24,015 nt of DNA from a virus. Location of the stretch: positions 1-24,015 of the IMG/VR virus record IMGVR_UViG_3300031857_001375; one strand, written 5' to 3'. The notes beneath the pieces were generated by a model. It was not told where the DNA came from, ran no database searches, and was given only the letters and a program-made list of their open reading frames with translations. This document shows positions 1,056 to 23,992 of the stretch, one piece after another. The position numbers and the translations under genes are program-made. Position 1 is the stretch's first letter. Each line of letters opens with the position of its first letter.

Positions 1056-1588
1056 CAGTTGAAACCCTCCAGCTCGGCGGCGATGGCAAGGAGTTTGCCC
1101 CTAATCTCAAGCGCTTTCCCTAACACAGGGCTTTCATTGCGTTCGTAATACTCAAGCATTACAGCAGGTGGCACCACCTGCTCCGCAACAGCTTGCAGGG
1201 CGGCGGAAAGCATGGTGCGCTCATTGACGACCCACACGCCTTCTACATACTCACCATCACTAGCGTTTTCAAAGGCATCCAACACCGCCTGAGCGGCGGG
1301 GGAAAGCGTACCGTTCAAACCGTAAAAACCCTGCGATTTGTTACACATTGCCACCCTCCAGCTCGGCGGCTTGGGGCGGCGGGCGGCGCGGATGTAGCGA
1401 GCAAAGTTATAAGCATCCTCACCTGCGTCAATCTCAACCAGCCTTAGGCACGCCTCCAGCTCCTGGTCGGCGCCCGCTTGGAAGGCTTGAAGCAGCAGCA
1501 CATCGACGTTTTCGCGCTCGTCAAACCAGTCGTCTTCCCACTGCTTGAGAAGCTCCGGAGGTGGGGTGATCGGGTAGTTTTCGTTCAT
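1055..1588 (-). CDS. Two fused small cyanobacterial/cyanophage families (PPPEL..QW type)
   Basis: 177 residues with two halves. Residues 1-76 (start MNENYPITPPPELLKQWEDD, end RRPKPPS) match, from memory, a short protein family common in picocyanobacteria and their phages. Residues 81-177 (SPAAQAVLDAFENA to LAIAAELEGFN) resemble a second family that usually begins its own protein. Between them an in-frame ATG (codon 81) is preceded by GGAGGGTGGCA, a strong ribosome-binding site, so the second half may also be made alone. Function unknown. A leaderless-type promoter cassette ends 6 bases before the first ATG. Confidence 0.75.
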   Translation of the reverse strand: MNENYPITPPPELLKQWEDDWFDERENVDVLLLQAFQAGADQELEACLRLVEIDAGEDAYNFARYIRAARRPKPPSWRVAMCNKSQGFYGLNGTLSPAAQAVLDAFENASDGEYVEGVWVVNERTMLSAALQAVAEQVVPPAVMLEYYERNESPVLGKALEIRGKLLAIAAELEGFN

Positions 1589-1660
1589 GAATTAACTATA
1601 GCGCCTTTTGTCCGTTTTCGAAAGGGGGCAAACCGCCCTCCCAGGTACGGTTAACCGCCC
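1589..1660 (-). promoter_or_regulatory. Terminator-promoter cassette A, leaderless type
   Basis: Reading the minus strand: palindrome CGGTTAACCG (1657-1648), hairpin GGGCGGTTTGCCCCC then TTT (1638-1621), -35-like TTTCGA (1623-1618), 17 bp, -10 TATAGT (1600-1595), 6 bp, then ATG at 1588. The transcript would start at or next to the A of the ATG. Confidence 0.8.
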
Positions 1661-2671: not shown

Positions 2672-3360
2672 TGAGGGTCGGTTTCGATCTGAAAGAAGGT
2701 GTCTTGGGTGGCGTTGTAAGCAGTTAGCACTCCGGTTTTGTACGCAAGAGTGTCAATGCAAATACCGTTCGGAATTCGGTAGGGCAATGCGCCTTTCGGA
2801 GTGTGACCGAAGACAACTTTCTTGAGGTGCGGAGTCCACTTTTCAAATTGCGGCCCATCATCCAGAAAGGGCCTCCGCATCCATAGAAATTGCTCTCGAA
2901 GGTAGTGCGTTCCCATCATCGTTTGGGGATCCTCACCAGGCGGGCAGCCTGCGTGTGTGAACAGCGTATCACCGATTACAGCGTAGTACGGCAGCTCGCG
3001 AAGCCATCCGACGTGTTTCCTTAGTTTTTCGAAATCTTCCCAGTTTCCACCATTCATAACCCAGTCTTCCCACCCGAAACCCTCGTCAGCGTTTAGAAAC
3101 ATCTGCTCGTGATTGCCACGAATCACGGTGAATGCCTCAAGACCGTTGCGAGTGGGATCCTCGAGAAGGCAGCGGGTGAGTTCCAGGACGACCAAGTCCT
3201 CACCGCCACGATCAACCAAGTCGCCAAGAAGAATGACATGGGCTCCGCTGTCGCGAACCCAGTCAAGAAACATTAGGTAAGGTTCTGCAGTTGCGTGAAT
3301 GTCACCAACGGCGATCACGTCGCCGGGATTGATAACATCGCAGAAGTTAAAAATATCCAT
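2668..3360 (-). CDS. Calcineurin-like metallophosphatase (PPP / lambda-PP type)
   Basis: 230 residues with the full PPP metal-site set: GDIH (19-22), GDLVDRG (46-52), GNHE (82-85), FTHAG and FGHTPKG further on. Such enzymes hydrolyse phosphomonoesters with a two-metal site. The ATG at 3360 shares TGATG with the stop of the polynucleotide kinase. In bacterial Pnkp RNA-repair enzymes a kinase domain is followed by a phosphatase domain of this same superfamily, so a role in healing 2',3'-phosphate RNA ends is a reasonable inference. A Ser/Thr protein phosphatase like lambda PP is the alternative. Confidence 0.9.
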   Translation of the reverse strand: MDIFNFCDVINPGDVIAVGDIHATAEPYLMFLDWVRDSGAHVILLGDLVDRGGEDLVVLELTRCLLEDPTRNGLEAFTVIRGNHEQMFLNADEGFGWEDWVMNGGNWEDFEKLRKHVGWLRELPYYAVIGDTLFTHAGCPPGEDPQTMMGTHYLREQFLWMRRPFLDDGPQFEKWTPHLKKVVFGHTPKGALPYRIPNGICIDTLAYKTGVLTAYNATQDTFFQIETDPQ

Positions 3361-3818
3361 CAAAAGATAAAGTTGATTCGATCAAAAGATTCGTTATAGA
3401 TGTTCTTCAGAGAAGCGTTCAGTTTCTCGTGCATGGTGCGAATCACATGCTCGGGAACTTTGCGAGTCCGAGAAGCGTTGCGCTTCAGGCAGGTTTCAAC
3501 AGTCGGGTTGACGACCACGGCTTCAATCTTGGTGTAACCGTAAGACTTCAGAAGAGCGATAGCCTCCTTCCGATAAGACGCTCGATAATGAGTACCGTCC
3601 AGAATAACAGGCATACCGCAAGCTTCAGAAACCAGCTCCTCAATTCGGTCCTGGATTTCCACCCAGTTGCCCTGGATGTCAGCGGAACCGTAGAGTTCAG
3701 CGCGAATGTCGTCACCGGAGATAACAAAAGCATTCTCAGACTCTGCCAGTTCGGAAGCAAAGGTGGATTTGCCGGAGCCGGGAGCCCCGACCATCACGTA
3801 AGCACGGAATTCGTTCAT
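3360..3818 (-). CDS. Polynucleotide 5'-kinase-like P-loop protein
   Basis: 152 residues. Walker A GAPGSGKST (11-19), a general-base type ISGDDIR (34-39), DGTHYRASYRK (74-84), and a lid-like RNASRTRKVPEHVIRTM (113-129) that resembles the kinase domain of T4 Pnkp. The T4 3'-phosphatase domain is absent. It would phosphorylate 5'-OH ends of nucleic acid. The start at 3818 is fixed by the promoter cassette, whose -10 ends 6 bases upstream; in-frame codons further up lie inside the cassette. It is directly followed by a phosphatase gene and, elsewhere, by an RNA ligase gene. Confidence 0.85.
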   Translation of the reverse strand: MNEFRAYVMVGAPGSGKSTFASELAESENAFVISGDDIRAELYGSADIQGNWVEIQDRIEELVSEACGMPVILDGTHYRASYRKEAIALLKSYGYTKIEAVVVNPTVETCLKRNASRTRKVPEHVIRTMHEKLNASLKNIYNESFDRINFIF

Positions 3819-3891
3819 GATATAACTATAGCGTTTTTTGGCCGAAAGGTAAAGGGGGTAAACCGCCCTCCGAGGTACGGTTAACCGCCCT
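3819..3891 (-). promoter_or_regulatory. Terminator-promoter cassette B, leaderless type
   Basis: CGGTTAACCG palindrome, hairpin GGGCGGTTTACCCCC plus TTT, -35-like TTTACC (3853-3848), 17 bp, TATAGT (3830-3825), 6 bp, ATG at 3818. The TAA stop of the upstream gene (3883-3881) is part of the palindrome. Confidence 0.82.
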
Positions 3892-4607: not shown

Positions 4608-4764
4608 TGCTGTTGTTGCAGAAGTTGACGTAAAAAACGAGCATTCCAACGAAGCCGATCAACATGAGGACAGTTTGACCCGTAAACAGGGCGCCCAAAA
4701 ACATTCCGAAGAACATAGCGGTGAGCCGGGCACTGAGCCCACACAGGGGGAGTCTGAATTTCAT
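4597..4764 (-). CDS. Small hydrophobic membrane protein
   Basis: 55 residues, MKFRLPLCGLSARLTAMFFG then two hydrophobic stretches (about 17-28 and 31-47) separated by TGQ, ending in a polar NFCNNSNEN tail; two membrane helices are likely. The ATG is 6 bases after the -10 of a promoter cassette, which makes this the first gene of the nucleotidyltransferase operon. Family unknown. The location between a conserved cassette and a coupled gene is the best evidence that it is real. Confidence 0.7.
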   Translation of the reverse strand: MKFRLPLCGLSARLTAMFFGMFLGALFTGQTVLMLIGFVGMLVFYVNFCNNSNEN

Positions 4765-4836
4765 ACTTTAACTATAGCGCCTTTTCGCCGCAGACGAAAG
4801 GGGGTAAACCGCCCTCTCAGGTACGGTTAACCGCCC
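4765..4836 (-). promoter_or_regulatory. Terminator-promoter cassette C, leaderless type
   Basis: Palindrome CGGTTAACCG, hairpin GGGCGGTTTACCCCC plus TTT, -35-like TTTCGT (4799-4794), 17 bp, TATAGT (4776-4771), 6 bp, ATG at 4764. The upstream gene ends GGC GGT TAA inside the palindrome. Confidence 0.82.
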
Positions 4837-6129: not shown

Positions 6130-6349
6130 TCTTCACTTCCTCATAAGTCGTTTCGTCTAAACGAGTTCTACCTGCCCACATTTTACCACAAGATGTACAA
6201 TTTACTTTAAAAGTAGTTGTGTTAGCATCAGGATTGATATTCACTCCATTTTTATCATAGATTGGTTGAAAATACATACAAGTTCTCATTTCAAAACTTT
6301 TAGTAAATTTACAATCCTCTCTGGGGCATTCTGGATTTGGGTTTTTCAT
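6122..6349 (-). CDS. Small Cys-rich, zinc-ribbon-like protein
   Basis: 75 residues with CPREDC near the N-terminus (two Cys spaced by four), one Cys in RTCMYF, and CTSCGKMW near residues 51-58 (CxxC). This could form a zinc ribbon, but the first half does not match the classic CxxC spacing. The ATG overlaps the preceding stop (ATGA). Function unknown. Confidence 0.65.
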   Translation of the reverse strand: MKNPNPECPREDCKFTKSFEMRTCMYFQPIYDKNGVNINPDANTTTFKVNCTSCGKMWAGRTRLDETTYEEVKND

Positions 6350-6921: not shown

Positions 6922-6931
6922 TTACAAAGGG

Positions 6932-7090
6932 TTATGAAGTTGGAGTATTTTTCTTATACCATTCCGCATCTCGTTTTTCTCTTGTGAAGTTTGTCCAAAG
7001 GAGTCTTGTTTTGTATTTTAGATTCAAATAATCTGAGATTTCTTTAATACTTTCCAATTTTGGTTCAGTCTTTCTGGAAAGGTCAGTCAT
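6932..7090 (-). CDS. Unknown 52-residue basic protein
   Basis: I place the start at the ATG at 7090 (MTDLSRKTEPKLESIKEISD), which shares AATGA with the stop of the upstream membrane peptide; an in-frame upstream start would fall inside that gene. Lys/Arg-rich C-terminal half (TREKRDAEWYKKNTPTS). No family recognised. Confidence 0.6.
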   Translation of the reverse strand: MTDLSRKTEPKLESIKEISDYLNLKYKTRLLWTNFTREKRDAEWYKKNTPTS

Positions 7091-7233
7091 TTCAATACAG
7101 CAGCAGTTCCCCAAGCAATAAGAGACAATAGAAAATAAGAAAGAGACAGAATAGCAATACTAACTGGTTTGTCTCTTAGATTTTGTGCCAGATAAACATT
7201 AGCAACAATCATAAAAACATCTGCCTTAGTCAT
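7087..7233 (-). CDS. Small two-helix membrane protein
   Basis: 48 residues: MTKADVFMIVANVYLAQNLR, a polar turn (DKPVS), then a long hydrophobic stretch IAILSLSYFLLSLIAWGTA. Starts three bases after the preceding stop with GAGAGTGAAGA upstream, and overlaps the next gene by ATGA. Likely an inner- or thylakoid-membrane peptide; function unknown. Confidence 0.6.
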   Translation of the reverse strand: MTKADVFMIVANVYLAQNLRDKPVSIAILSLSYFLLSLIAWGTAAVLK

Positions 7234-7236
7234 TCT

Positions 7237-7467
7237 TCACTCTCCACAAAGTTTAAGTGCTGGAACTTTTTCGTGAGTTGTATTTTCGGTCCTCCACAAA
7301 CATGCCTCTTCGTGTTTTCCATAATACCAAGCATCATGGTAGTCCAGTAAGATTTCAAGTTCTTCAAAATGACTAACATCATTTACTCCAATCTCATAAC
7401 CACGAACAACCACTCTCAAATCTTGTGGATACTCTTTCAGTTTTTCAATCAATTCTGCAATAGTCAT
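7237..7467 (-). CDS. Conserved small phage/bacterial protein (ELIEKLKEYPQD type)
   Basis: 76 residues. The N-terminus MTIAELIEKLKEYPQDLRVV followed by VRGYEIGVNDV belongs, from memory, to a widespread family of small phage and bacterial proteins with the pattern LI..L...PQD..VVV.GYE.G..D. Function unknown. The ATG overlaps the stop of the preceding gene. Confidence 0.75.
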   Translation of the reverse strand: MTIAELIEKLKEYPQDLRVVVRGYEIGVNDVSHFEELEILLDYHDAWYYGKHEEACLWRTENTTHEKVPALKLCGE

Positions 7468-7703
7468 AGTGCCTCAAGTTCATTAATAAGAGTCAAAAGT
7501 TCATCCACATAAATCACACTATCTCCTCCATACATTCTAGCATAAAACTCGTCCATATTGGGGTCTGGTGGAAGAGAAGATGAGTATTGATTGATGATTT
7601 CTTTGATTGTATGAATAAGAAGTTTGGGTTGAGACAAATCTTTTTCCTTATCCATATAGGCATAAAGAACTTTTTTTGCTTGTTCGGTTTTGTAATTAGT
7701 CAT
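7464..7703 (-). CDS. Unknown 79-residue helical protein
   Basis: MTNYKTEQAKKVLYAYMDKE, then a Ser/Pro linker (YSSSLPPDPN) and FYARMYGGDSVIYVDELLTL. The MYG..x..YV segment resembles one in the protein at 5169-5402. It begins six bases after the EF-Ts-like ORF and ends by ATGA overlap. Confidence 0.65.
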   Translation of the reverse strand: MTNYKTEQAKKVLYAYMDKEKDLSQPKLLIHTIKEIINQYSSSLPPDPNMDEFYARMYGGDSVIYVDELLTLINELEAL

Positions 7704-7709
7704 AAGTCT

Positions 7710-7871
7710 TTAAATAGTATGATACGAACTTAGGTGTTCATTAATATAAGCAATCGATTTCTTAATATCTCCATTTGTTGAGTATAATGCCTTCTTGCAA
7801 TCCATTATCCCGGCACCAGTTATTTCACGCAACTCTTTAATTAACTTAGGGTCTTTATGAGGTTCAGTCAT
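7710..7871 (-). CDS. Free-standing EF-Ts N-terminal (UBA) domain
   Basis: 53 residues. [20 protein letters not shown] followed by [15 protein letters not shown] matches the N-terminal UBA domain of elongation factor Ts (E. coli pattern [20 protein letters not shown], then NGDI..AI..). In full EF-Ts this domain helps dock onto EF-Tu, while the nucleotide-exchange core follows. Here the protein stops right after the domain, so exchange activity is not expected; binding EF-Tu without exchange is my inference. Start ATG overlaps the preceding stop (ATGA). It is AT-rich like its neighbours. Confidence 0.85.
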
Positions 7872-8173
7872 TTCAAGTTATCCATAAGAAACTGTTTGTA
7901 ATCACCTTGTCCGTCATAATAGTTGGAATTATACTCTTTCCAACTATCTTCATCCTCTGCAATTTTCCAGTGTTTGTCCTGCAAGTCGCCGAACCGGTTG
8001 CTGCCGGTCCGAGTAGACACCCAGAAGAAGTATTTACGGTTCTCGGATGCCAGAAACAACTCACCGCCAGTGTCCTGTTCGACAATGCACAGCGGGTTGC
8101 CATCCATTGAGTTTGCTAGGCGATTCTTCGCCTTGGCGCTGAGTGCTTCGACTCTGACTTTTCGTTCAGTCAT
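7868..8173 (-). CDS. Unknown 101-residue protein with mixed composition
   Basis: Begins [20 protein letters not shown], then a beta-rich middle ([31 protein letters not shown]) and an acidic aromatic tail ([18 protein letters not shown]). The first two thirds use GC-richer codons than the last third, which matches the AT-rich island. ATGA overlaps join it to both neighbours. No family recognised. Confidence 0.7.
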
Positions 8174-8341: not shown

Positions 8342-8944
8342 TTAAGCAAAAGACAAAACAGTGGGCATCTGAGCGTTGTAAGCAAGCTCCTTAAGATTGA
8401 GACGCTTCGCGTCATGAGCGTAGTGGAAGAAACCGCTGTTGGTTCCTTGCCACATTCTGGTCGGATTTGCAGCGTGCTTATCAGCAAGGTTGCCAGACTG
8501 AGCACGCATAGCTTTCAGGGCGCGAGCACACTCGTCGTATGACAGATTCAGGTCGGTTTCAACGCGCCACAGCAGGCGATAAGACTGGTTGCGGAAACGA
8601 CCGTCGTTACTGAAAGTGAAGTAACCGAGCCAGGGCTTCATGTCGAAGTAGTCAAACCACTGAACCATGTCGAGACCAGAAACTTCACAAACGTCAAAGT
8701 CGAGGCCGACAATGGTTTGAGTGCGCCAGCAGAGCTTTTCGAATTGAAGTTCCATCAGGTCGCGACCGTTCAGGAGACCGCCGTAAAAAGGGCAACCTTT
8801 CTCGGTCACAAGGCGAATGAATTCGTGCTCGTGAAGCGACTCCCAGGGACGCTGAATCATACGCTCGCGAAGCTTACCGTACTCCTGCAGAGTTTCGGGC
8901 TTGGACTGACGGGGATCGCCGAGGTGGCAGAGGACTTTGTTCAT
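8342..8944 (-). CDS. Primase/polymerase-like (AEP-type) protein, tentative
   Basis: 200 residues. VGLDFDV (79-85) gives a DxD, SYRLLWRVE (121-129) resembles the strand carrying the second archaeo-eukaryotic primase motif, and NPTRMWQGTNSG (160-171) resembles the conserved NP.R..R.PGT segment of plasmid and phage prim-pol proteins. These together suggest a small primase-polymerase core, with the classic His replaced by Arg (SYR). The start at 8944 is set by the -10 six bases upstream. It is the first gene of the long transcript into the AT-rich island. Another nucleotidyltransferase fold is possible. Confidence 0.6.
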   Translation of the reverse strand: MNKVLCHLGDPRQSKPETLQEYGKLRERMIQRPWESLHEHEFIRLVTEKGCPFYGGLLNGRDLMELQFEKLCWRTQTIVGLDFDVCEVSGLDMVQWFDYFDMKPWLGYFTFSNDGRFRNQSYRLLWRVETDLNLSYDECARALKAMRAQSGNLADKHAANPTRMWQGTNSGFFHYAHDAKRLNLKELAYNAQMPTVLSFA

Positions 8945-9014
8945 GATATAACTATAGCGTGGTTTGGCTGTTCTGGAAAGGGGGCAAACCGCCCTGTCAG
9001 GTACGGTTAACCGT
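8945..9014 (-). promoter_or_regulatory. Terminator-promoter cassette D, leaderless type
   Basis: CGGTTAACCG palindrome, hairpin GGGCGGTTTGCCCCC plus TTT, -35-like TTTCCA (8979-8974), 17 bp, TATAGT (8956-8951), 6 bp, ATG at 8944. The palindrome is inside the last codons of the upstream gene. Confidence 0.82.
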
Positions 9015-9737: not shown

Positions 9738-9823
9738 CGGAGAGAACAGGACTCGAACCTGCGAAGGGTTTTATCCCCCGACCGCTCTCGAAACGGCGTC
9801 CTCGACCGAACCGGACTCTCTCC
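9738..9823 (-). tRNA. tRNA-Ser(CGA)
   Basis: Acceptor GGAGAGA/TCTCTCC, anticodon loop TTCGAGA, long variable arm, T-arm GCAGG-TTCGAGT-CCTGT. The D stem GTCC/GGAC follows the acceptor directly, so positions 8-9 are unusual. Confidence 0.85.
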
Positions 9824-9827
9824 AAGG

Positions 9828-9909
9828 TGTCCCCTGCCGGACTTGAACCGGCACGACTACTGTCAGCGCATTTTAAGTGCGCAGCGCCTACCAATTACGC
9901 CAAGGGGAC
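9828..9909 (-). tRNA. tRNA-Leu(TAA)
   Basis: Acceptor GTCCCCT/AGGGGAC, anticodon arm GCGCA-CTTAAAA-TGCGC, 13-nt class II variable arm, T-loop TTCAAGT. No intron, unlike many cyanobacterial Leu(UAA) genes. Confidence 0.93.
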
Positions 9910-9912
9910 AAG

Positions 9913-9987
9913 GTGCTCAGTGCGAGGATCGAACTCGCCTGTATCCGATTATGAGTCGGGTGCTTTCACCAGATAGCTAACTGAGCA
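9913..9987 (-). tRNA. tRNA with CAT anticodon (Met, or Ile reading AUA)
   Basis: Acceptor TGCTCAG/CTGAGCA, loop CTCATAA, T-arm GCGAG-TTCGATC-CTCGC. The CGACTCATAATCG arm resembles Ile(k2CAU) tRNAs; sequence alone does not decide. Confidence 0.85.
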
Positions 9988-14384: not shown

Positions 14385-14521
14385 AGGTACTTGAGCTCCA
14401 GGGTTTGAATGATCGGCTCAATCTCACGAGCAGTGTAAGCAGTGGCGCTGTAAACACCGTCAACGTAAATGTCGTATCGGGGACCGAGGTGGGTACGGCG
14501 AACCTTGGTGGTGATTTCCAT
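14381..14521 (-). CDS. Unknown 46-residue protein, first gene after cassette G
   Basis: MEITTKVRRTHLGPRYDIYV then DGVYSATAYTAREIEPIIQT and LELKYL: two beta strands and a helix. Its ATG is six bases after a TATAGT box and its stop overlaps the GTG of the next gene. These two anchors support it although it is short. Function unknown. Confidence 0.68.
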   Translation of the reverse strand: MEITTKVRRTHLGPRYDIYVDGVYSATAYTAREIEPIIQTLELKYL

Positions 14522-14594
14522 GATATAACTATAGCTGGTTTTGGCACGGGAGTAAAGGGGGTAAACCGCCCTGGCGTGGGCGGGTAACCGCCCC
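14522..14594 (-). promoter_or_regulatory. Terminator-promoter cassette G, leaderless type
   Basis: Altered palindrome (GGGGCGGTTACCCG), hairpin GGGCGGTTTACCCCC plus TTT, -35-like TTTACT (14556-14551), 17 bp, TATAGT (14533-14528), 6 bp, ATG at 14521. Confidence 0.8.
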
Positions 14595-15382: not shown

Positions 15383-16099
15383 TCAAGCTCGAATTTCAAC
15401 GAGTTCCTTCCGGTGGCAGTCCCAGAGGACCAGGGCAGGCGACTCTTCGCAGAACCACGACCGCTTGACCCCACCGCAACCGGCATCGAGCACCAAAGAA
15501 TTCTCGGTTGAGCAAACCACGTGGTAGTGTCCGGCGACGCGCACCCAGGGCCGCTCGCTGGCGTGCTCCCACCAGAATACACGACCTTTTCCTTCTTTAC
15601 TGTTTGGTCCGTACATCATCAGGCTCTTCGCCTTCTTCGGCACGTCAAATACCATGTGAAACAGCGGGTAATCAGGCACTTCGAGCCAGGAAGGGAAGTA
15701 TGCGTGTGAGCATCTGTACTCCTGGTTTGAATCATCGCGAAAACAGAAGCCGTAAGGCATCGTTTCCAGCCACTGGCCCACTTCCGACAGCGGAATCTCA
15801 GCCGCCGCGAAATCTTCAATCGTGCGAGCCAACTCAGGCGAAACGTGAACGTTATTTCCGCGAATGTATCGCTCCAGCTTGTCCTGGTGGTTGGAACGCA
15901 GAACAATCGCACCCAGTTCTTTCTGAGCTTGCTTCAGCAGCTGGTACACACCAGCGGAATCGCTGAAGTCGCAGCGGGAGTCAAACACATCGCCCAGAAT
16001 TACGGGAATCAGAGCGTTGTTTTGGCAATAGGCCAAAGCCTCCCACAGAGGGCGATACTGCGAGTGAATATCGCCGATCAGACAGTAGTTACGGTTCAT
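15383..16099 (-). CDS. Calcineurin-like metallophosphoesterase (second copy type)
   Basis: 238 residues. CLIGDIHSQY (6-15), VILGDVFDSR, LRSNHQDKLERYI (an NH-type motif III in place of GNHE) and VAGHYHVVCS supply the metal ligands of the calcineurin fold. The loops differ strongly from the phosphatase at 2668-3360, so it is a separate lineage with perhaps another substrate. The start lies three bases after the stop of the upstream gene. Candidate substrates are nucleotides, RNA ends or proteins; none is indicated by the sequence. Confidence 0.85.
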   Translation of the reverse strand: MNRNYCLIGDIHSQYRPLWEALAYCQNNALIPVILGDVFDSRCDFSDSAGVYQLLKQAQKELGAIVLRSNHQDKLERYIRGNNVHVSPELARTIEDFAAAEIPLSEVGQWLETMPYGFCFRDDSNQEYRCSHAYFPSWLEVPDYPLFHMVFDVPKKAKSLMMYGPNSKEGKGRVFWWEHASERPWVRVAGHYHVVCSTENSLVLDAGCGGVKRSWFCEESPALVLWDCHRKELVEIRA

Positions 16100-17359: not shown

Positions 17360-18433
17360 TCACAGGCCCAACAGGGCGTCGAGCTGCTTGGGCTTCATTT
17401 GCCCCACGAATTCCGTGAAGTTCGCGTACTTGCCGGCACGAATGCCGAACATTGCACCGGAAACATTCGGGTGGTTTTCGAGGACAATGCCCGCAAATTC
17501 CTTCTGGGAGTAACCTTCGTACAGTCGCACGAAGCCCTCAACCATGAACCCGATATCGCCGATACGATCGCGCAAAGCGTTGAACTCTGCGGAATGGTCG
17601 GGGAAGTGCAGCAGGAACTCGTCCAGATCGTCGTTCAGGTACAGCTCGGAGAAGTCAGGATCCCCGTTACCGCGAACGCGATGCAACTGAACGTAAACGT
17701 CGGACTTGACCTTGATTCGGTTACCGTTCGCGTCGCAAACGATGAAGCCTTCGTGGTCGGCACCGCGAGCGTTGACTGCGTCAACGATGTTGTCAGCACC
17801 GAAATTGAAGGACTCAGCCACCCAGAATACGCGGGAGAAATCACCCAGCGGCAACTCTACGAAATCGTTCGCACGATCCCGCACTGCCAGCAGCCGTAAC
17901 ATCGGCTCGTCGTACTTCACAACGATCCGGTTCTCGGCAGCGCACAACTCAAACACGTAGCAGTAATTCGGGTTCAGGTCGAAAGCGTTATAGCGCATGT
18001 ACCGGAAGGTATCCCAGAACAGCTCTTCAAACGACTTACCGGAATCACCAACGCTGCCAGCACCGCCGACAGAACCGGAGGTAGAAACAACCCACTGCAC
18101 ACCGTTCCAGAACAGTTTGATCAGCGAGCCATCATACTTCTCGTATACGTTCGCGGAGGACCAGTCAATCTCATCAGCTTCAGCTTCGCCCAGGTTGAAG
18201 AAACGGTCGAACGCGTAAGCTACCAGAGAGAAACCGTCGTCGTCTTTCTGAACTACGGCACCACGGCAAGCACGCACGATCGGGTTACCCTTGTCGGTAC
18301 CAATTACTCCGTACTTCAGGTTGAACAAACCAGGGAAACGGTCGTCCGTAGAAACGCGGATGTCCAGGTCCGCCAGGCGAGCCAGCCCATAGTCATTCAG
18401 CCAGTTGATCAGGTTGTTTCGCAAGTTATCCAT
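17360..18433 (-). CDS. rnlA-like: T4 Rnl1-type RNA ligase
   Basis: 357 residues, close to T4 Rnl1 (374). YEKYDGSLIKLFW gives motif I KxDGS with the nucleophile at K99; RACRGAVV (54-61) and AFDRFFNLGE (74-83) precede it as in T4; EGFIVCDANGNRIKVKSD gives motifs IV and V. It should seal 5'-phosphate to 3'-OH RNA ends using ATP, typically repairing cleaved tRNA anticodon loops. The start at 18433 is six bases after a TATGCT box. Its physiological partners would be the kinase and phosphatase at 2668-3818 and the tRNA array just beyond. Confidence 0.92.
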   Translation of the reverse strand: MDNLRNNLINWLNDYGLARLADLDIRVSTDDRFPGLFNLKYGVIGTDKGNPIVRACRGAVVQKDDDGFSLVAYAFDRFFNLGEAEADEIDWSSANVYEKYDGSLIKLFWNGVQWVVSTSGSVGGAGSVGDSGKSFEELFWDTFRYMRYNAFDLNPNYCYVFELCAAENRIVVKYDEPMLRLLAVRDRANDFVELPLGDFSRVFWVAESFNFGADNIVDAVNARGADHEGFIVCDANGNRIKVKSDVYVQLHRVRGNGDPDFSELYLNDDLDEFLLHFPDHSAEFNALRDRIGDIGFMVEGFVRLYEGYSQKEFAGIVLENHPNVSGAMFGIRAGKYANFTEFVGQMKPKQLDALLGL

Positions 18434-18681: not shown

Positions 18682-18753
18682 TGCTCCCAGACGGATTTGA
18701 ACCGCCGACAATCTCGGTGTAAACGAGGTGCTCTACCGCTGAGCTATAGGAGC
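18682..18753 (-). tRNA. tRNA-Val(TAC)
   Basis: Acceptor GCTCCTA/TGGGAGC, anticodon loop TTTACAC on stem CTCG/CGAG, T-arm GGCGG-TTCAAAT-CCGTC, discriminator A. Confidence 0.9.
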
Positions 18754-18825
18754 TAACGGCCCTTTTGTTGACGGTGTGAAGCCGAACTCCGGGGTACTTG
18801 CAAGTTTGGACCTTACTTTCCCCGA

Positions 18826-18898
18826 TCCGCCGTGCGGGAATCGAACCCGCTATCCAACTCCCTTGTCGGGGTGTCATTGCCATTTAGACTACCGGCGG
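18826..18898 (-). tRNA. Aberrant tRNA-like gene, anticodon unclear
   Basis: Acceptor CCGCCGG/ACGGCGG (one G.A mismatch), D-arm GTC..TGGC..GAC and T-arm GCGGG-TTCGATT-CCCGC are good. The anticodon region CACCCCGACAAGGGAGT gives only a 5-bp stem with a bulge and a 6-base loop without U33. It may be a damaged Glu-like tRNA or a non-decoding tRNA-like RNA. Confidence 0.5.
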
Positions 18899-18945
18899 AA
18901 GGTGGCCCGTAACGTGGGCCAATCGTCACACTTTTCGGGTCACTG

Positions 18946-18961
18946 GAGCCCCGAAGGGCTC
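18946..18961 (-). terminator. UUCG hairpin after the SLH gene
   Basis: GAGCCC-TTCG-GGGCTC, perfect 6-bp stem, 9 bases after the stop codon of the SLH protein. No T-tract follows, so it may protect or process the mRNA end instead of terminating. Confidence 0.5.
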
Positions 18962-18970
18962 AGCACTAAA

Positions 18971-19843
18971 TCAGAACTTAAAGCCCGCGCCAACTACGCC
19001 TACGGGAGCGTAAGCAGTGCCGTTCACACCAGATCCCTTGGTCGGAAACTTGATGTCAGCGAACAGGACGAAGCTATCACTCACACGACCTTCGATACCA
19101 GCCACGAATACGGCCTGGCTGCTTTGACCAACGGTCGACTGGAAGTTGGAACCGGTACCATTTACCAGCGGGAACTGACCACCACCACCGAAGTAGAGGT
19201 TGGCTTTGCTCACCTTGCTACCGTCAGCTAGAGTTGCCGAGGCAATCGACTTGTCGTAGGTGGCCAGGATACCAGCGCCAGCGCCGATTTGACCGGCAGG
19301 GGAACCTGCGAAGTTGAAGTAGGGGCGAGCCGAGATTTCGCCGCCGAGGGCGTTAGCCATGGGGAAACGACCCTGAATAGTGGCACCGCCAATCGTGCGG
19401 TTTTTGGTATAACCGTTGCCATCGACGCCTTGACGGGTCAGGGTCAAACCAGCGCCAAGATAGGAGCCAACATTCTTGGCTTTGCGCTCAGCTTTCAGTT
19501 CGATGGCGGCAACTCGGGCTTGAGTACCGTTCCACTTAGCAGCTTGCTCTTTCAGAGCAGCAGCGAGTTGAGCATCTTTGGCATCTTGGAAATCGCTAAT
19601 GCGATCCACGCAAGAGTTCACCAGGGCAGCCAGTTCAGCACGAGAAGCGGGTTGACCAGCCTTGAAGGTGCCGTTAGGGTAACCGGCAACGCAACCGTAG
19701 CGAGAAACCAGATTGCTAATTGCCTGGTAGCTCCACTCAGTTGGCTGCACATCTTTCAGTTGCGACACGGAGGTCACTTGGGCTGAAGCGGGAACCGCAA
19801 GGGAGACGGTAGCGACGCTAGCAGCAAGGATAGTTTTAAGCAT
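18971..19843 (-). CDS. SLH-domain outer-membrane protein (small cyanobacterial-porin-like)
   Basis: 290 residues. Signal peptide MLKTILAASVATVSLAVPAS, cleavage after ASA (about 21). Residues 22-78 form one SLH domain (SVSQLKDVQPTEWSYQAISN, GCVAGYPNGTFKAGQPASRA), which in cyanobacterial porins binds peptidoglycan-linked polymer. A short coiled-coil spacer follows (80-120), then Gly- and aromatic-rich alternating strands ending GVVGAGFKF, the C-terminal Phe typical of outer-membrane barrels. At 290 residues it is much shorter than host porins (about 500), so the barrel is small. It sits inside the tRNA array, 49 bases after tRNA-Gly. A virus-carried envelope protein is inferred. Confidence 0.85.
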   Translation of the reverse strand: MLKTILAASVATVSLAVPASAQVTSVSQLKDVQPTEWSYQAISNLVSRYGCVAGYPNGTFKAGQPASRAELAALVNSCVDRISDFQDAKDAQLAAALKEQAAKWNGTQARVAAIELKAERKAKNVGSYLGAGLTLTRQGVDGNGYTKNRTIGGATIQGRFPMANALGGEISARPYFNFAGSPAGQIGAGAGILATYDKSIASATLADGSKVSKANLYFGGGGQFPLVNGTGSNFQSTVGQSSQAVFVAGIEGRVSDSFVLFADIKFPTKGSGVNGTAYAPVGVVGAGFKF

Positions 19844-19891
19844 TCTTTATTCAGAACCTGTACAGATTGCCCGATTAGAGTATTCGGGCGA

Positions 19892-19963
19892 AGCGAACGA
19901 TCGGACTTGAACCGACGACATCTAACTTGGAAGGATAGCGTTCTACCACTGAACTACGTTCGC
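19892..19963 (-). tRNA. tRNA-Gly(TCC)
   Basis: Acceptor GCGAACG/CGTTCGC, loop CTTCCAA, T-arm TCGG-TTCAAGT-CCGA, discriminator T. Confidence 0.93.
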
Positions 19964-19967
19964 AAGG

Positions 19968-20040
19968 AGCCCCAAGTCAGATTCGAACTGACGACCGCTC
20001 GCTTACAAGGCGAGTGCTCTGGCCACTGAGCTACAAGGGC
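19968..20040 (-). tRNA. tRNA-Thr(TGT)
   Basis: Loop CTTGTAA on CTCGC/GCGAG-type stem, T-arm GTCAG-TTCGAAT-CTGAC. Acceptor GCCCTTG/TTGGGGC contains a T.T mismatch and wobble pairs. Confidence 0.88.
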
Positions 20041-20044
20041 GGAA

Positions 20045-20063
20045 GAAAAGGTGCTTTCGCACC
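20045..20063 (-). terminator. Intrinsic terminator after the RlpA-like gene
   Basis: GGTGC-GAAA-GCACC followed by TTTTCTT, between the RlpA-like stop and tRNA-Thr. Confidence 0.75.
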
Positions 20064-20092
20064 TAGCATAGTCACAAGCGAAGTTCGTAAAC

Positions 20093-20461
20093 TTAGGCTC
20101 GCGAGTAACACACGTTAATGTGGCCACGGCCAGGATTTGCCAGCGCCTGGAAAGCAGCGTAGGAGAGATCAAGGTCTCGCCCAGCCACGAATGGGCCACG
20201 ATCGTTGATTCGCACGACGACCGAACGGCCCCCGTGAGTTACTCGAAGTCGGGTTCCGAACGGAAGATTACGGTGTGCCGCTGTCAAGGCATAGGTGTTA
20301 AACCGTTCTCCGCTCGCTGTAGTTTGACCGTGATAGCCGTCACCTACCCCGTAATAGCTGGCGCCAGAGCATGACGAAGCTAGAGAAGGCGACGGAGCCA
20401 GGAAAGTCATTCCGGCAACGGCGGCCAAACCAAACAAACCCTTCAGTTTCGAAACAAGCAT
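20093..20461 (-). CDS. RlpA-like double-psi beta-barrel secreted protein
   Basis: 122 residues. [20 protein letters not shown] to about residue 30 is a signal peptide. The rest is one RlpA DPBB domain: [40 protein letters not shown] and [20 protein letters not shown], including the acidic residue of RINDRGPF used by RlpA lytic transglycosylases. No SPOR domain. It would act on peptidoglycan in the periplasm; a role in lysis or wall remodelling during infection is inferred. It has its own promoter, a long structured leader and its own terminator, so it is regulated apart from the tRNAs. Confidence 0.88.
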
Positions 20462-20619
20462 TTAATTAGATAGAAATCAACATCCACCTCGCAAAGTGTG
20501 GGTCCGTGTTTCAACGGCACTTGTGGGTGGCTCTAGGAGTTTAAGGAATGACTGCATTCCCGAGTTGCTCCCCGCAGTGTATCGTGGGGCCGACCTCATA
20601 AATCGGTGTTAAAAGCAAC
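20462..20619 (-). promoter_or_regulatory. Long structured 5' leader of the RlpA-like gene
   Basis: About 158 bases between the predicted start site and the ATG. It holds a stacked fold at 20530-20484 (CCACC/GGTGG, CAAGTG/CACTTTG, CCGT/ACGG) and a perfect hairpin GGAATG-CAGT-CATTCC (20560-20545). No known riboswitch class is recognised. Confidence 0.5.
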
Positions 20620-20625
20620 GCCGCT

Positions 20626-20658
20626 ATTATAACGGAAAAAGGGAGGCGTAAACCTCCC
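20626..20658 (-). promoter_or_regulatory. Terminator of the right tRNA block plus promoter of the RlpA-like gene
   Basis: GGGAGG-TTTACG-CCTCCC followed by TTTTT (20658-20636) is an intrinsic terminator. TATAAT (20631-20626) follows directly. TTTACG in the hairpin loop lies 15 bp upstream of the -10, similar to cassette E. Confidence 0.75.
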
Positions 20659-20777
20659 CGTGCGCTCAGAGTGCGTTGCTCAAACGGCAACAGCAGTCCT
20701 GCGGAATGAAACGATGTTGTTGAGATTTATTCTCACTTCACCCTGCACGGTCGATAACCAGTTTACCCCCGTAAAAT
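20659..20777. other. Intergenic spacer without a clear gene
   Basis: Between the terminator and the tRNA remnant. It contains GCTCAGAGTGCG and CAACGGCAACAG-type short inverted elements but no supported ORF or tRNA. Confidence 0.4.
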
Positions 20778-20846
20778 GGAGGTAAGGCGATTCGAACGCC
20801 TGTGTCGCACAGAGCGCCCCAGTTTATAGTCTTGTGAGAGGACTTT
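20778..20846 (-). pseudogene. tRNA remnant (3' half only)
   Basis: T-arm AGGCG-TTCGAAT-CGCCT and acceptor strand TACCTCC with discriminator A are intact, but no complementary GGAGGTA 5' strand, D-arm or 7-base anticodon loop can be fitted upstream. A CTGTG-CGA-CACAG hairpin occupies the anticodon region. The 5' limit is uncertain. Confidence 0.45.
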
Positions 20847-20860
20847 GCCCCGAAGGACAA

Positions 20861-20932
20861 TGGGCGATACTGGACTTGAACCAGTGACTTCTTCCGTGTC
20901 AAGGAAGTACTCTACCGCTGAGTTAATCGCCC
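20861..20932 (-). tRNA. tRNA-Val(GAC)
   Basis: Acceptor GGGCGAT/ATCGCCC, loop TTGACAC, T-arm ACTGG-TTCAAGT-CCAGT, discriminator A. Confidence 0.93.
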
Positions 20933-20935
20933 TGG

Positions 20936-21024
20936 CGGAAGGGGAGGGATTTGAACCCTCGGAGCCGGTTTCCCGACTCGGCAGTTTAGCAAACTGCTGC
21001 CTTAAACCACTCGGCCACCCTTCC
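20936..21024 (-). tRNA. tRNA-Ser(GCT)
   Basis: Acceptor GGAAGGG/CCCTTCC, anticodon stem CAGTT/AACTG with loop TGCTAAA-type GCT anticodon, long variable arm GTCGGGAAACCGGC, T-arm GAGGG-TTCAAAT-CCCTC. Confidence 0.93.
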
Positions 21025-21044
21025 AAATTTGCTCTCGCGAGCAA

Positions 21045-21118
21045 CGCCTCCTGTAGGATTCGAACCCACAACCCTCTGATCCGAAGTCAGATGCTCTAGT
21101 CCGTTGAGCTAAGAAGGC
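21045..21118 (-). tRNA. tRNA-Arg(TCG)
   Basis: Acceptor GCCTTCT/AGGAGGC, loop CTTCGGA on TCTGA/TCAGA, T-arm TGTGG-GTTCGAA-TCCTACA region, discriminator G. Confidence 0.92.
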
Positions 21119-21122
21119 AAAG

Positions 21123-21194
21123 TAAGAGATGGTGGATTTGAACCACCGACAACAGGGGTATGAGTCCTGCGCTCTACCACTGAGCTAATCTCTC
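21123..21194 (-). tRNA. tRNA with CAT anticodon (elongator Met or Ile-CAU)
   Basis: Acceptor GAGAGAT/ATCTCTT (G.T first pair), loop CTCATAC, T-arm GGTGG-TTCAAAT-CCACC. Confidence 0.88.
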
Positions 21195-21212
21195 AAATTC
21201 CCTTTCGGGAAA

Positions 21213-21293
21213 TGCCCCCAGTCGGACTTGAACCGACAAACCTTTCGGCGGCTGATTTTGAATCAGCTGTGTTTACCATTTCACCACAAGGGC
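21213..21293 (-). tRNA. tRNA-Leu(CAA)
   Basis: Acceptor GCCCTTG/TGGGGGC, anticodon arm GCTGA-TTCAAAA-TCAGC, class II variable arm, T-arm GTCGG-TTCAAGT-CCGAC. Confidence 0.93.
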
Positions 21294-21297
21294 AAGG

Positions 21298-21369
21298 CAC
21301 CCTCGGCAGGATTTGAACCTGCGGCTAACCGCTTAGAAGGCGGATGCTCTTCCACTGAGCTACGAGGGC
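21298..21369 (-). tRNA. tRNA-Arg(TCT)
   Basis: Acceptor GCCCTCG/CGAGGGT, loop CTTCTAA on CCGC/GCGG, T-arm GCAGG-TTCAAAT-CCTGC. Confidence 0.93.
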
Positions 21370-21372
21370 AAA

Positions 21373-21446
21373 CGCTCTCTGTAGGATTCGAACCTACGAC
21401 CTTCTGATCCGTAGTCAGACGCTCTAATCCGCTGAGCTAAGAGAGC
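21373..21446 (-). tRNA. tRNA-Arg(ACG)
   Basis: Acceptor GCTCTCT/AGAGAGC, loop CTACGGA on TCTGA/TCAGA, T-arm GTAGG-TTCGAAT-CCTAC. A34 would need host deamination to inosine. Confidence 0.93.
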
Positions 21447-21450
21447 ATGG

Positions 21451-21521
21451 CACCGAAACAAGGGCTTGAACCTTGGATAACAGTTTTGGAGACTGTCGTG
21501 TTACCACTACACTATTTCGGC
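21451..21521 (-). tRNA. tRNA-Trp(CCA)
   Basis: Acceptor GCCGAAA/TTTCGGT, anticodon arm ACAGT-CTCCAAA-ACTGT, T-arm CAAGG-TTCAAGC-CCTTG. Confidence 0.92.
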
Positions 21522-21541
21522 AAAGTTGCCCGTCAGGGCAA

Positions 21542-21615
21542 TGTCCGTGAGAGGACTCGAACCTCCAACAACTACCACCTCAAAGTAGCGCGTCTGCCAA
21601 TTGCGCCACACGGAC
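21542..21615 (-). tRNA. tRNA-Leu(GAG) with a short variable loop
   Basis: Acceptor GTCCGTG/CACGGAC, anticodon arm CTACT-TTGAGGT-GGTAG as in bacterial Leu(GAG), T-arm GGAGG-TTCGAGT-CCTCT. The variable region is only TTGTT, not the long arm normal for Leu. Confidence 0.88.
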
Positions 21616-21620
21616 ATTGG

Positions 21621-21692
21621 TTCTGGAGCTAGGACTCGAACCCAGGAATGGCGGGACCAAAACCCGCTGCCTTACCACTTGGCTACTCCAGA
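21621..21692 (-). tRNA. tRNA-Gln(TTG)
   Basis: Acceptor TCTGGAG/CTCCAGA with the U1-A72 pair typical of Gln, loop TTTTGGT, T-arm CTGGG-TTCGAGT-CCTAG. Confidence 0.93.
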
Positions 21693-21711
21693 TTACTTGG
21701 CACGAGGCCAA

Positions 21712-21783
21712 AGTTTCGGGTCGGAATCGAACCGACGCATGAAGATTTTGCAGACCTTCGCCTTACCACTTGGCTACCGAAAC
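21712..21783 (-). tRNA. tRNA-Cys(GCA)
   Basis: Acceptor GTTTCGG/CCGAAAC, loop CTGCAAA, T-arm GTCGG-TTCGATT-CCGAC, discriminator T (U73 is the Cys identity base). Confidence 0.93.
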
Positions 21784-21785
21784 GG

Positions 21786-21858
21786 GGTGGTCGATGAGAT
21801 TTGAACTCACATGAACCAGATCCACAATCTGGCGCATTAACCATTATGCTACGACCAC
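21786..21858 (-). tRNA. tRNA-His(GTG)
   Basis: Acceptor GTGGTCG/CGACCAC with C73, loop TTGTGGA, T-arm TGAG-TTCAAAT-CTCA. The base before position 1 is T, where bacterial His tRNAs normally encode G-1. Confidence 0.9.
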
Positions 21859-21860
21859 AG

Positions 21861-21945
21861 CGGAGAGGGTGGGATTCGAACCCACGGAGGCTTTCACCTC
21901 GCTAGTTTTCAAGACTAGAGCCATCAACCACTCGACCACCTCTCC
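21861..21945 (-). tRNA. tRNA-Ser(TGA)
   Basis: Acceptor GGAGAGG/CCTCTCC, anticodon arm CTAGT-CTTGAAA-ACTAG, long variable arm GAGGTGAAAGCCTC, T-arm GTGGG-TTCGAAT-CCCAC. Confidence 0.94.
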
Positions 21946-21949
21946 AAGG

Positions 21950-22021
21950 AGCGGATGAAGGGATTTGAACCCTCGACTTTCTCCTTGGCAAGGAGATGCT
22001 CTACCGCTGAGCTACATCCGC
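21950..22021 (-). tRNA. tRNA-Gly(GCC)
   Basis: Acceptor GCGGATG/CATCCGC, anticodon arm TCTCC-TTGCCAA-GGAGA, T-arm GAGGG-TTCAAAT-CCCTT. Confidence 0.94.
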
Positions 22022-22041
22022 GAACGTTCCCGAAGGAACGA

Positions 22042-22114
22042 TGGAGAATAGGAGACTCGAACTCCTGACATCCTGCTTGCAAAGCAGGCGCTCTACCAAC
22101 TGAGCTAATTCCCC
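22042..22114 (-). tRNA. tRNA-Ala(TGC)
   Basis: Acceptor GGGGAAT/ATTCTCC including a G3.T70 wobble (the Ala identity pair), anticodon arm CTGCT-TTGCAAG-CAGG region, T-arm CAGGAG-TTCGAGT-CTCCT. Confidence 0.93.
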
Positions 22115-22253
22115 AAGCAGGGCGAGAGTGTTCACCTACGATCACCTTAACAGTGCGTCTACGGTGTGACTTAGGGGACTCTTCATTTAATGCAACATTC
22201 CTCGTTGCACCCTCTTTGGCCTCCTTCCTGGCTATCTGCCAGACGAGTACCAA
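22115..22253 (-). other. 139-base spacer with hairpins
   Basis: Hairpins CTGGC-AGATA-GCCAG and TGCAAC-GAGGAAT-GTTGCA are visible on the minus strand. An open frame runs through it into tRNA-Ala and is not convincing as a gene. Confidence 0.4.
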
Positions 22254-22325
22254 AGCCATCACTGAGGTTTGAACTCAGGACCTCCATCTTACCAAGATGG
22301 CGCACTACCACTGTGCTATGACGGC
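22254..22325 (-). tRNA. tRNA-Thr(GGT)
   Basis: Acceptor GCCGTCA/TGATGGC, anticodon arm CCATC-TTGGTAA-GATGG, T-arm CTGAG-TTCAAAC-CTCAG. Confidence 0.93.
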
Positions 22326-22330
22326 GAAAG

Positions 22331-22412
22331 TGGGAAAGACTGGATTTGAACCAGTGAAGGCAGAGCCAAAGGTTTTACAGACCTCCTCCTTTAACCACTC
22401 GGACACTTTCCC
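22331..22412 (-). tRNA. tRNA-Tyr(GTA)
   Basis: Acceptor GGGAAAG/CTTTCCC, anticodon GTA in CTGTAAA, long variable arm, T-arm ACTGG-TTCAAAT-CCAGT. Confidence 0.93.
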
Positions 22413-22667
22413 AAAATCCCCTTGCGGGGGGATTTGACGGTCTCTGCAGAGTAGATTGTCAGTTCAACACCTTCAATCACCGTCGTTTGCCCAGTTACCA
22501 GCTGGGCGGTGTAGCATTCAGTAACCCGGAAATGCCAGAGGGGACCACTCGTATCAGGTCATTAGCCTCCCTTATGCCTCAGGAGTTTGGCGCACGGCAT
22601 AACTCTCCGTACCGGAGTTGCACTTTTTGGTCAAGGTAGCAAATATCTCCTTGTTGCCCGAAGGCAA
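22413..22667 (-). other. 255-base spacer, hairpin-rich
   Basis: Contains AAATCCCC...GGGGATTT (22435-22414), a nested fold ACCG-CCCAG-CTGGTAA-CTGGG-...-CGGT, CTCCG-GTA-CGGAG, and a UUCG hairpin TTGCC-TTCG-GGCAA (22667-22654). A frame without a start codon (VTECYTAQLVTGQTTVIEGV...) is visible; I do not call it. Confidence 0.4.
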
Positions 22668-22741
<74 letters not shown>

Positions 22742-22753
22742 TGATGGCCCCAT

Positions 22754-22936
22754 TTAACACGTGAAACGCTTCAAGAACGCACAGAGGTGGGGGCTCGTGG
22801 CTTCCAGCAGGGCTCGCATATTGGCCGGTAAGAGTGTTTCATCCAGCAGCACCAACGGCAAGACAGCCCTCAAGAAAGCACCACACATTAACGACTGTAT
22901 GAGTGGCCGTGTCGGGAACTTAACGACGTATTCCAT
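22754..22936 (-). CDS. Possible 60-residue protein, doubtful
   Basis: MEYVVKFPTRPLIQSLMCGA then FLRAVLPLVLLDETLLPANM and a Cys-containing tail. The ATG has CGGAG five bases upstream. It is hydrophobic in the middle (possible membrane helix) and lies alone in a long spacer between tRNAs. There is no family match I know, so it may be chance. Confidence 0.3.
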   Translation of the reverse strand: MEYVVKFPTRPLIQSLMCGAFLRAVLPLVLLDETLLPANMRALLEATSPHLCAFLKRFTC

Positions 22937-23457
22937 ACGACTCCGGTGTCTAGAACGGAGGGTGCTTCGTTCTCCCTAGGGCGATCAAAGAACGCGGGAC
23001 GGTGATTGCAGACCGCAGCCCGATGCTATGCCCGGACATTTCCGGACCACGCAGAGCGGGAACGAGGCAGGTGTCTCTACGTTGTACGTTCCACAAGTGT
23101 CACCAACTCTGTCGTACGTTCCACAAGTGTCACCGACAGTTCAACTCCTTTTACTTTCCTTACCTCGGCAGGGTGCCGCTACCTCCCTTGTTGCGGCGTG
23201 TGTGTACGTTTCGTACATCTGGGTACGTTACTAGACCCAGGATACTGCTTACTGTACCCGCATCAAGTCGTGAGTGTCGTTAACGCTTGAGCATGGAATG
23301 GGAGTTCACCCATTCATAACCTATTTGGGAGCCTGAACTATGACTCTTACAGACCGTTTGGCATTTTTCTCGCTCCCAGACTACGCAAACTGCCAAATGG
23401 CATCCGGGCACAAGCCTACTCCCCCCTCGTCTAGTAGGCATCGCATGGACGAGGGAA
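22937..23457 (-). other. About 520-base non-coding region with direct repeats and hairpins
   Basis: A 21-base direct repeat (23084-23104 and 23114-23134) with 30-base period and further GTACGTT motifs (23205, 23223) lie beside hairpins at 23032-23045, 23203-23217, 23219-23240 and 23296-23315. No supported ORF on the minus strand. It may be a structured RNA or a binding-site cluster. Confidence 0.45.
23084..23134. repeat. Two tandem copies of a 21-base motif
   Basis: GTACGTTCCACAAGTGTCAC plus C occurs identically at 23084-23104 and 23114-23134, separated by 9 bases. Confidence 0.85.
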
Positions 23458-23529
23458 CTGGCCCGGCAGGGATCGAACCTGCGACAACTTGATTAACAGT
23501 CAAGCGTTCTACCGCTGAACTACAGGCCA
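23458..23529 (-). tRNA. tRNA-Asn(GTT)
   Basis: Acceptor TGGCCTG/CGGGCCA (U1-A72), anticodon arm CTTGA-CTGTTAA-TCAAG, T-arm GCAGG-TTCGATC-CCTGC, discriminator G. Confidence 0.93.
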
Positions 23530-23530
23530 T

Positions 23531-23607
23531 TGGTGGCGGAGGCAGGATTCGAACCTGCGACCTCCAGGTTATGAGCCTGGCGAGCTACCGGACTGCTCTA
23601 CTCCACG
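23531..23607 (-). tRNA. Initiator tRNA-fMet(CAT), CCA encoded
   Basis: C1xC72 mismatch, D-loop AGCAGTCCGGTAGCTCG typical of initiators, loop CTCATAA, T-arm GCAGG-TTCGAAT-CCTGC and an encoded CCA end. The anticodon stem is CCAGG/CCTGG, so the usual three G-C pairs are A-U, G-C, G-C. Confidence 0.9.
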
Positions 23608-23717
23608 ATGAAGCCCCTGGTAGAAGTAACCGTTGCCAGCTGGACGCACTTACTCCTGATTTTTACAACGTTAAAGACCCCAGAGGTAGCGGCCTGCGGT
23701 TGTGCCCCGAAGGGCAA

Positions 23718-23791
23718 TGGGAACTGACGGATTTGAACCATCGACACCACGGGCTTCAACCGTGTGCTCTACCAATCTGAGCTAAGTCCCC
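23718..23791 (-). tRNA. tRNA-Phe(GAA)
   Basis: Acceptor GGGGACT/AGTTCCC, anticodon arm CACGG-TTGAAGC-CCGTG, T-arm GATGG-TTCAAAT-CCGTC. Confidence 0.93.
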
Positions 23792-23795
23792 GAGG

Positions 23796-23867
23796 TGGAA
23801 CCGACAAGACTTGAACTTGTGACCGCTCGGTTATCAGCCGAGTGCTCTACCACTGAGCTACGGTTCC
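23796..23867 (-). tRNA. tRNA-Ile(GAT)
   Basis: Acceptor GGAACCG/CGGTTCC, anticodon arm CTCGG-CTGATAA-CCGAG, T-arm ACAAG-TTCAAGT-CTTGT. Confidence 0.94.
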
Positions 23868-23898
23868 GTAGGTTAACTCCCTCCCTGGGAGTTACCAA

Positions 23899-23970
23899 CG
23901 ACCCTAACGGGATTTGAACCCGTGATACCACCGTGACAAGGTAGCGTGATCACCACTTCACTATAGGGTC
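23899..23970 (-). tRNA. tRNA-Asp(GTC)
   Basis: Acceptor GACCCTA/TAGGGTC, anticodon arm CTACC-TTGTCAC-GGTGG, T-arm ACGGG-TTCAAAT-CCCGT, discriminator G73. Confidence 0.93.
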
Positions 23971-23992
23971 AAGACGAGGTTTGTAACCTCTA

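Follow-up and report, generated by a model that had tools for sequence, protein, structure and literature searches.

Background

An unpaired 1:72 position and an A11:U24 pair are hallmarks of initiator tRNAs, and G2:C71 and C3:G70 are the formylation pairs in E. coli. Initiators also carry three G:C pairs in the anticodon stem, which have been described as highly conserved in all domains of life (PMC7949028). According to a review, efficient initiation in E. coli needs one of them, G29:C41 (PMC11231383), and on E. coli ribosomes the 2'-OH of nucleotide 41 is the point at which G1338 touches pair 29:41 (PMC11497404). In E. coli, IF3 is reported to act against leaderless initiation and also against initiators that have lost the three G:C pairs (PMC2268962). 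Phage tRNAs substitute for depleted host tRNAs (PMC9964418; PMC10264068). Synechococcus phage S-CBWM1, a psbA-carrying cyanophage related to the one described here, has a large tRNA cluster, with no recognisable initiator among its 36 annotated tRNAs.

Here we describe an initiator-type tRNA gene with an A29:U41 pair in a 24,015-base IMG/VR record (IMGVR_UViG_3300031857_001375, positions 1 to 24,015), referred to below as the window.

Results

The window is nearly identical (99.9%) to part of a 112,424-base contig, IMGVR_UViG_3300042691_027855. This longer contig encodes the photosystem II D1 protein (psbA; Photo_RC, 3e-89) as well as ribonucleotide reductase, DNA polymerase, a topoisomerase subunit and tail fibres, and its DNA primase shares 58% identity with the S-CBWM1 primase; it is therefore a cyanophage. 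In addition to the main tRNA cluster (Table 1), three tRNA genes are located at 9738–9986 of the window and two more beyond its end on the 112-kb contig, for a total of 31 tRNAs that cover all 20 amino acids and include the initiator. The RNA ligase and the kinase-like protein encoded in the window could possibly repair tRNAs. The kinase-like gene, a phosphatase-like gene (15383–16099) and the RNA ligase gene each match a part of phrog_8238, as if a three-domain RNA-repair protein had been divided among three genes. S-CBWM1 has an annotated tRNA nucleotidyltransferase, of which no counterpart was found on the 112-kb contig. ARAGORN reports a possible tmRNA in S-CBWM1 (L162, 23885–24202). Short ORFs are numerous at positions 5000–8000 of the window, an A+T-rich island (about 35% G+C, with about 52% in the flanking DNA) that may have been inserted recently.

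Table 1. Features of the window discussed in the text
Feature	Position	Strand	Basis
Initiator-type tRNA gene, anticodon CAU	23531..23607	(-)	ARAGORN; Rfam RF00005, 63.9 bits; sequence
CCA encoded in the initiator tRNA gene	23531-23533	(-)	sequence
C1, unpaired with C72 (23535)	23607	(-)	sequence
U3, wobble with G70 (23537); host has C3:G70	23605	(-)	sequence
A29, paired to U41 (23566); host-group initiators have G29:C41	23578	(-)	sequence
tRNA-Ser(GCU), CCA encoded (...CCCTTCC-G-CCA)	20933..21024	(-)	sequence
tRNA-Trp(CCA), CCA encoded (...TTTCGGT-G-CCA)	21448..21521	(-)	sequence
tRNA-Gln(UUG), CCA encoded (...CTCCAGA-A-CCA)	21618..21692	(-)	sequence
Main tRNA cluster, 26 of the 29 tRNA genes of the window	18682..23971	(-)	
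RNA ligase, T4 Rnl1 type	17360..18433	(-)	Pfam RNA_lig_T4_1, 2.9e-20; phrog_562, 8.2e-45
Polynucleotide-kinase-like AAA_33 protein	3360..3818	(-)	Pfam/PHROG profile matches
Leaderless-type promoter, GGTTAACCGTACCT..AGGGCGGTTTGCCCCC..TATAGT + 6 nt + ATG (ATG from 1588)	1588..1658	(-)	
Leaderless-type promoter; ATG 3818 starts the AAA_33/polynucleotide-kinase-like gene	3818..3888	(-)	
Leaderless-type promoter; ATG 4764	4764..4834	(-)	
Leaderless-type promoter; ATG 8944	8944..9014	(-)	
Leaderless-type promoter; ATG 14521	14521..14591	(-)	

ARAGORN and Rfam agree on a tRNA with a CAU anticodon at the location given in Table 1. Its sequence reads CGTGGAG TA GAGC AGTCCGGTA GCTC G CCAGG CTCATAA CCTGG AGGTC GCAGG TTCGAAT CCTGC CTCCGCC A CCA. 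Judged by these letters it is a real initiator-type tRNA: there is no Watson-Crick pair at 1:72, and G2:C71, A11:U24, A73 and the CAU anticodon in a CUCAUAA loop are all present. The anticodon stem consists of C27:G43, C28:G42, A29:U41, G30:C40 and G31:C39, so that two of the canonical three G:C pairs are present and the third is replaced, which defines the A29:U41 type of initiator considered below. The two formylation pairs are not both preserved, as G2:C71 is kept and the other is U3.G70, which may weaken formylation. An earlier sequence-only reading of this DNA had pointed out the unpaired C1xC72 with an initiator-type D arm and the change of 29:41 to A-U, and the written-out sequence bears out both. 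That reading was mistaken in crediting this gene alone with an encoded CCA, as the Ser-GCU, Trp and Gln genes also encode it; among cyanobacterial initiator genes 64.1% have an encoded CCA, which is thus ordinary there (PMC5143459).

Relatives of the gene were found by a pattern scan of IMG/VR with the tRNA body. The same body is present on ten contigs (L010, L032, L035, L039, L040, L050, L055, L071, L075 and L086), on most of the contigs that share it the tRNA sits in a large tRNA cluster, and psbA was found on four contigs with the same initiator type besides the 112-kb contig. Alignment of the phage copies shows A:U at 29:41 and G:C at 30:40 and 31:39 in every one, whereas 27:43 is C:G, U:A or A:U. 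All aligned copies have A:U at alignment columns 11 and 25 (A11:U24), and position 1:72 in the close relatives is C1xC72 or U1xC72. Conservation does not extend to the encoded CCA, several copies running on with CGG or TTG. Chance is not an issue, given that at least 10 further phage loci retain the tRNA body and that their anticodon-stem changes are compensatory. Separately, psbA lies in two pieces in G300 (99966–101655) and G301 (31828–33553), an arrangement also seen in S-CBWM1, whose annotation includes group I introns.

The window also encodes, at 18971–19843 on the reverse strand, an S-layer homology (SLH) domain protein with a signal-like N terminus that resembles cyanobacterial outer-membrane porins and has relatives on four other IMG/VR contigs (L006–L009). 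Its single genome match (L004, JAAUUT010000054.1) is labelled Candidatus Gracilibacteria, and no host was assigned from it. L004 contains psaA/psaB and a cyanobacterial initiator tRNA, and the label looks wrong. We used this match solely as an entry to the host phylum, which was sampled (292 genomes) starting from a cyanobacterial genome reached through it. With psaA/psaB in 138 of the 292 genomes, the phylum corresponds to Cyanobacteria plus non-photosynthetic relatives.

The canonical pattern of G29:C41, G30:C40 and G31:C39 was found in 257 of these 292 genomes, and the A29:U41 pattern in a single one (G219). We did not accept the latter as cyanobacterial. It is a second copy with an alphaproteobacteria-like C1xA72, located in the same genome as a canonical C1xC72 copy, and for these reasons is probably a contamination. 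The A29:U41 pattern was absent from all 400 genomes of a picocyanobacterial family, that of a psaA-positive genome of 2.7 Mb; 35 members of this family are also part of the phylum sample, and each of them has the canonical pattern. C1xC72 is present in 39 of the 40 photosynthetic cyanobacterial initiators that were read. The phage initiator thus has the acceptor mismatch of its host group but not the group's anticodon stem, a comparison made at the level of phylum and family and not of the host species. The sequence-only reading had named identity of the stem with that of the host initiator as a refutation of its idea, and the counts above uphold the difference. Picocyanobacterial initiators match the phage initiator at 63–64 of 77 positions, and a core from one picocyanobacterial initiator had no match in any cyanophage record.

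The A29:U41 pair recurs in phages of many hosts. Of 21 phage records read one by one, 16 have it in an initiator-like tRNA, a share biased upward because most of these records were fetched with an A29:U41 query. The 16 are Gordonia phages GodonK and Phendrix, Mycobacterium phages Myrna and ScoobyDoobyDoo, Clavibacter phage CN1A, Pseudanabaena phage Pan5, prophage CBW1004C-Prop1, Cronobacter phage GAP32, Erwinia phage Kaldavass, Vibrio phage nt-1, Escherichia phage JLBYU50, Cellulophaga phage phi17:2, Prevotella phage Lak-A1, Phass-1, Roseobacter phage DSS3P8 and Rhizobium phage TM3_3_3; the initiators of JLBYU50, CBW1004C-Prop1 and Phass-1 are weak, with altered loops or D arms. G29:C41 was found in Mycobacterium phage Bipolarisk, Streptomyces phage pSt2308, Bordetella phage PHB04 and Nocardia phage NTR1, and U29:A41 in Caulobacter phage BL47. 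Searches with exact cores returned 16 records for one A29:U41 core and 197 for one G29:C41 core, 188 of the latter being Mycobacterium phages. A neutral IMG/VR sample gave, among the matches listed, at least 71 A:U and at least 46 G:C at 29:41; the sample is suggestive only, as it contains lytic phages together with prophages and host flanks, and bacterial-type, densely packed tRNA arrays account for several of its G:C loci. We regard the recurrence, seen on the phage side, as a lead and not as a measured frequency. Prevotella phages Lak-B2, B4, B7 and B8 match both an A29:U41 and a G29:C41 core; the two sites lie about 5 kb from each other, which suggests that each of these phages has two distinct initiator-like tRNAs. 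Plasmid searches yielded similarity to alphaproteobacterial sequences only.

In a distinct class of promoters, exactly 6 nt separate TATA[AG]T from the downstream start codon; 8 ORFs on the 112-kb contig and 8 in G300 have this spacing, and any other spacing occurs in one or two ORFs only. The window contains five such promoters (Table 1), compared with a mean of 0.05 in Markov-shuffled sequence. Most are preceded by the upstream block GGTTAACCGTACCT..AGGGCGGTTTGCCCCC, and G304 has the same 6-nt spacing with a different upstream block. Transcription starting about 7 nt past the −10 box would have the A of the ATG as its first nucleotide, which predicts leaderless messages; the prediction comes from promoter geometry, and agrees with the earlier suggestion that the genome makes leaderless mRNAs. 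The class is absent from the stretches read of G299 and G301, and from S-CBWM1. Under a crude choice of starts, Shine-Dalgarno cores of 4 nt precede 13 of 103 ORFs (10.9 expected) and 5-nt cores 7 (2.4 expected); this weak-looking use does not speak for leaderless mRNA, and we set it aside.

Discussion

These results lead us to propose that the gene is probably a functional viral initiator that completes a 31-tRNA replacement set, its stem being a phage-type variant compatible with initiation. We infer that this tRNA is expressed, charged and formylated and has a part in initiation. The set would most likely keep phage protein starts and elongation going once host tRNAs become scarce in the infected cell. 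The host Met-tRNA synthetase, formylase and IF2 would treat the phage initiator like the host's own, because C1xC72, G2:C71, A11:U24, the CAU loop, G30:C40 and G31:C39 are retained, and A29:U41 would be a tolerated variant rather than a switch to another mode of initiation. Initiation should still work with this pair, considering that G1338 makes its contact through the 2'-OH of nucleotide 41 and that the alphaproteobacterial initiator-type tRNAs that were read also have A29:U41; some effect is possible in view of the E. coli requirement for G29:C41. The complete tRNA set, the psbA context, the conserved initiator body, the counts from the host group with its shared C1xC72, the recurrence of A29:U41 in the phage records, the RNA ligase and kinase-like genes, and published work on phage tRNAs that stand in for host tRNAs (PMC9964418; PMC10264068) support this proposal. 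The E. coli requirement and a possible lowering of formylation by U3.G70 weigh against it, as does S-CBWM1, which manages with 36 tRNAs and no recognisable initiator, so that an initiator is not needed for such a lifestyle.

A29:U41 may be kept because it evades a nuclease that recognises the stem of the host initiator, by ancestry, or under relaxed selection. The changed stem may make the tRNA a poor substrate for VapC-type initiator-cutting toxins of the host or a superinfecting phage, while the ligase and kinase repair other tRNAs. In its favour, the junction of anticodon stem and loop is where VapC toxins cleave tRNAfMet (PMC8522696), the window holds RNA-repair-like genes, and phages of many hosts show the stem change. 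Phage tRNAs hit by anticodon nucleases tend to have changes in the anticodon loop (PMC10264068), but the CUCAUAA loop here is the same as the host's; moreover, no initiator-cutting nuclease was identified in a host here and alphaproteobacteria have the A29:U41 stem without any phage, and we consider evasion somewhat unlikely as the explanation. We give a similarly low weight to ancestry or drift, in which the gene came from an A29:U41 bacterium, such as an alphaproteobacterium, or from another phage, and the pair was kept as harmless. Plasmid-borne alphaproteobacterial initiators are indeed closer in sequence than picocyanobacterial ones, but the C1xC72 of the phage is cyanobacterial and not alphaproteobacterial, related phages hold 29:41 constant while 27:43 varies, and the pair is found in phages on many hosts.

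The sequence-only reading had proposed that an initiator with this stem could load in another way and so promote translation of leaderless phage mRNAs. The promoter class does exist and co-occurs with the tRNA in some phages, and in E. coli IF3 is reported to check leaderless initiation as well as the three G:C pairs (PMC2268962). However, G299 and G301 have the initiator with the same stem and lack the promoter class in the stretches read, and A29:U41 is shared by unrelated phages and by alphaproteobacterial initiator-type tRNAs. Since IF3 disfavours both, an altered stem and leaderless mRNAs are not obviously helpful to each other, and the proposal now appears very improbable. That the tRNA is an elongator Met tRNA is still harder to believe: its CAU anticodon would fit, but the phage has two other CAU tRNAs that lack the unpaired 1:72 and A11:U24 found in this one.

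By keeping the C1xC72 of the host group and holding 29:41 at A:U, this cyanophage group constitutes a natural experiment on the role of the pair. If other phages repeat A29:U41, as our sample suggests, virus–host pairs could test whether 29:41 acts in fidelity, in toxin resistance, or in neither. It is conceivable, if quite unlikely, that phage initiators as a class break the three-G:C rule at 29:41 and that in the cyanophage group, together with leaderless promoters, they provide an initiation channel less sensitive to IF3 checking by the host or to initiator-cutting toxins.

Comparison with known systems

Cyanobacterial tRNAfMet shares with the phage initiator C1xC72, G2:C71, A11:U24, the CUCAUAA loop, G30:C40 and G31:C39, and often an encoded CCA. 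It differs in having G29:C41, U27:A43 and C3:G70, where the phage has A29:U41, C27:G43 and U3.G70. The initiator-type tRNAs on plasmids of the alphaproteobacteria Paracoccus and Tistrella are 88–90% identical to the phage gene and have the same A29:U41, G30:C40 and G31:C39, whereas their C1xA72, C3:G70 and U27:A43 set them apart. The initiator-like tRNAs of GodonK, Myrna, CN1A, Pan5 and GAP32 belong to phages of other hosts and have other acceptor stems, and some of them change 31:39, yet they have A29:U41 in common with the cyanophage gene, mostly within the same CCAGG/CCTGG stem.
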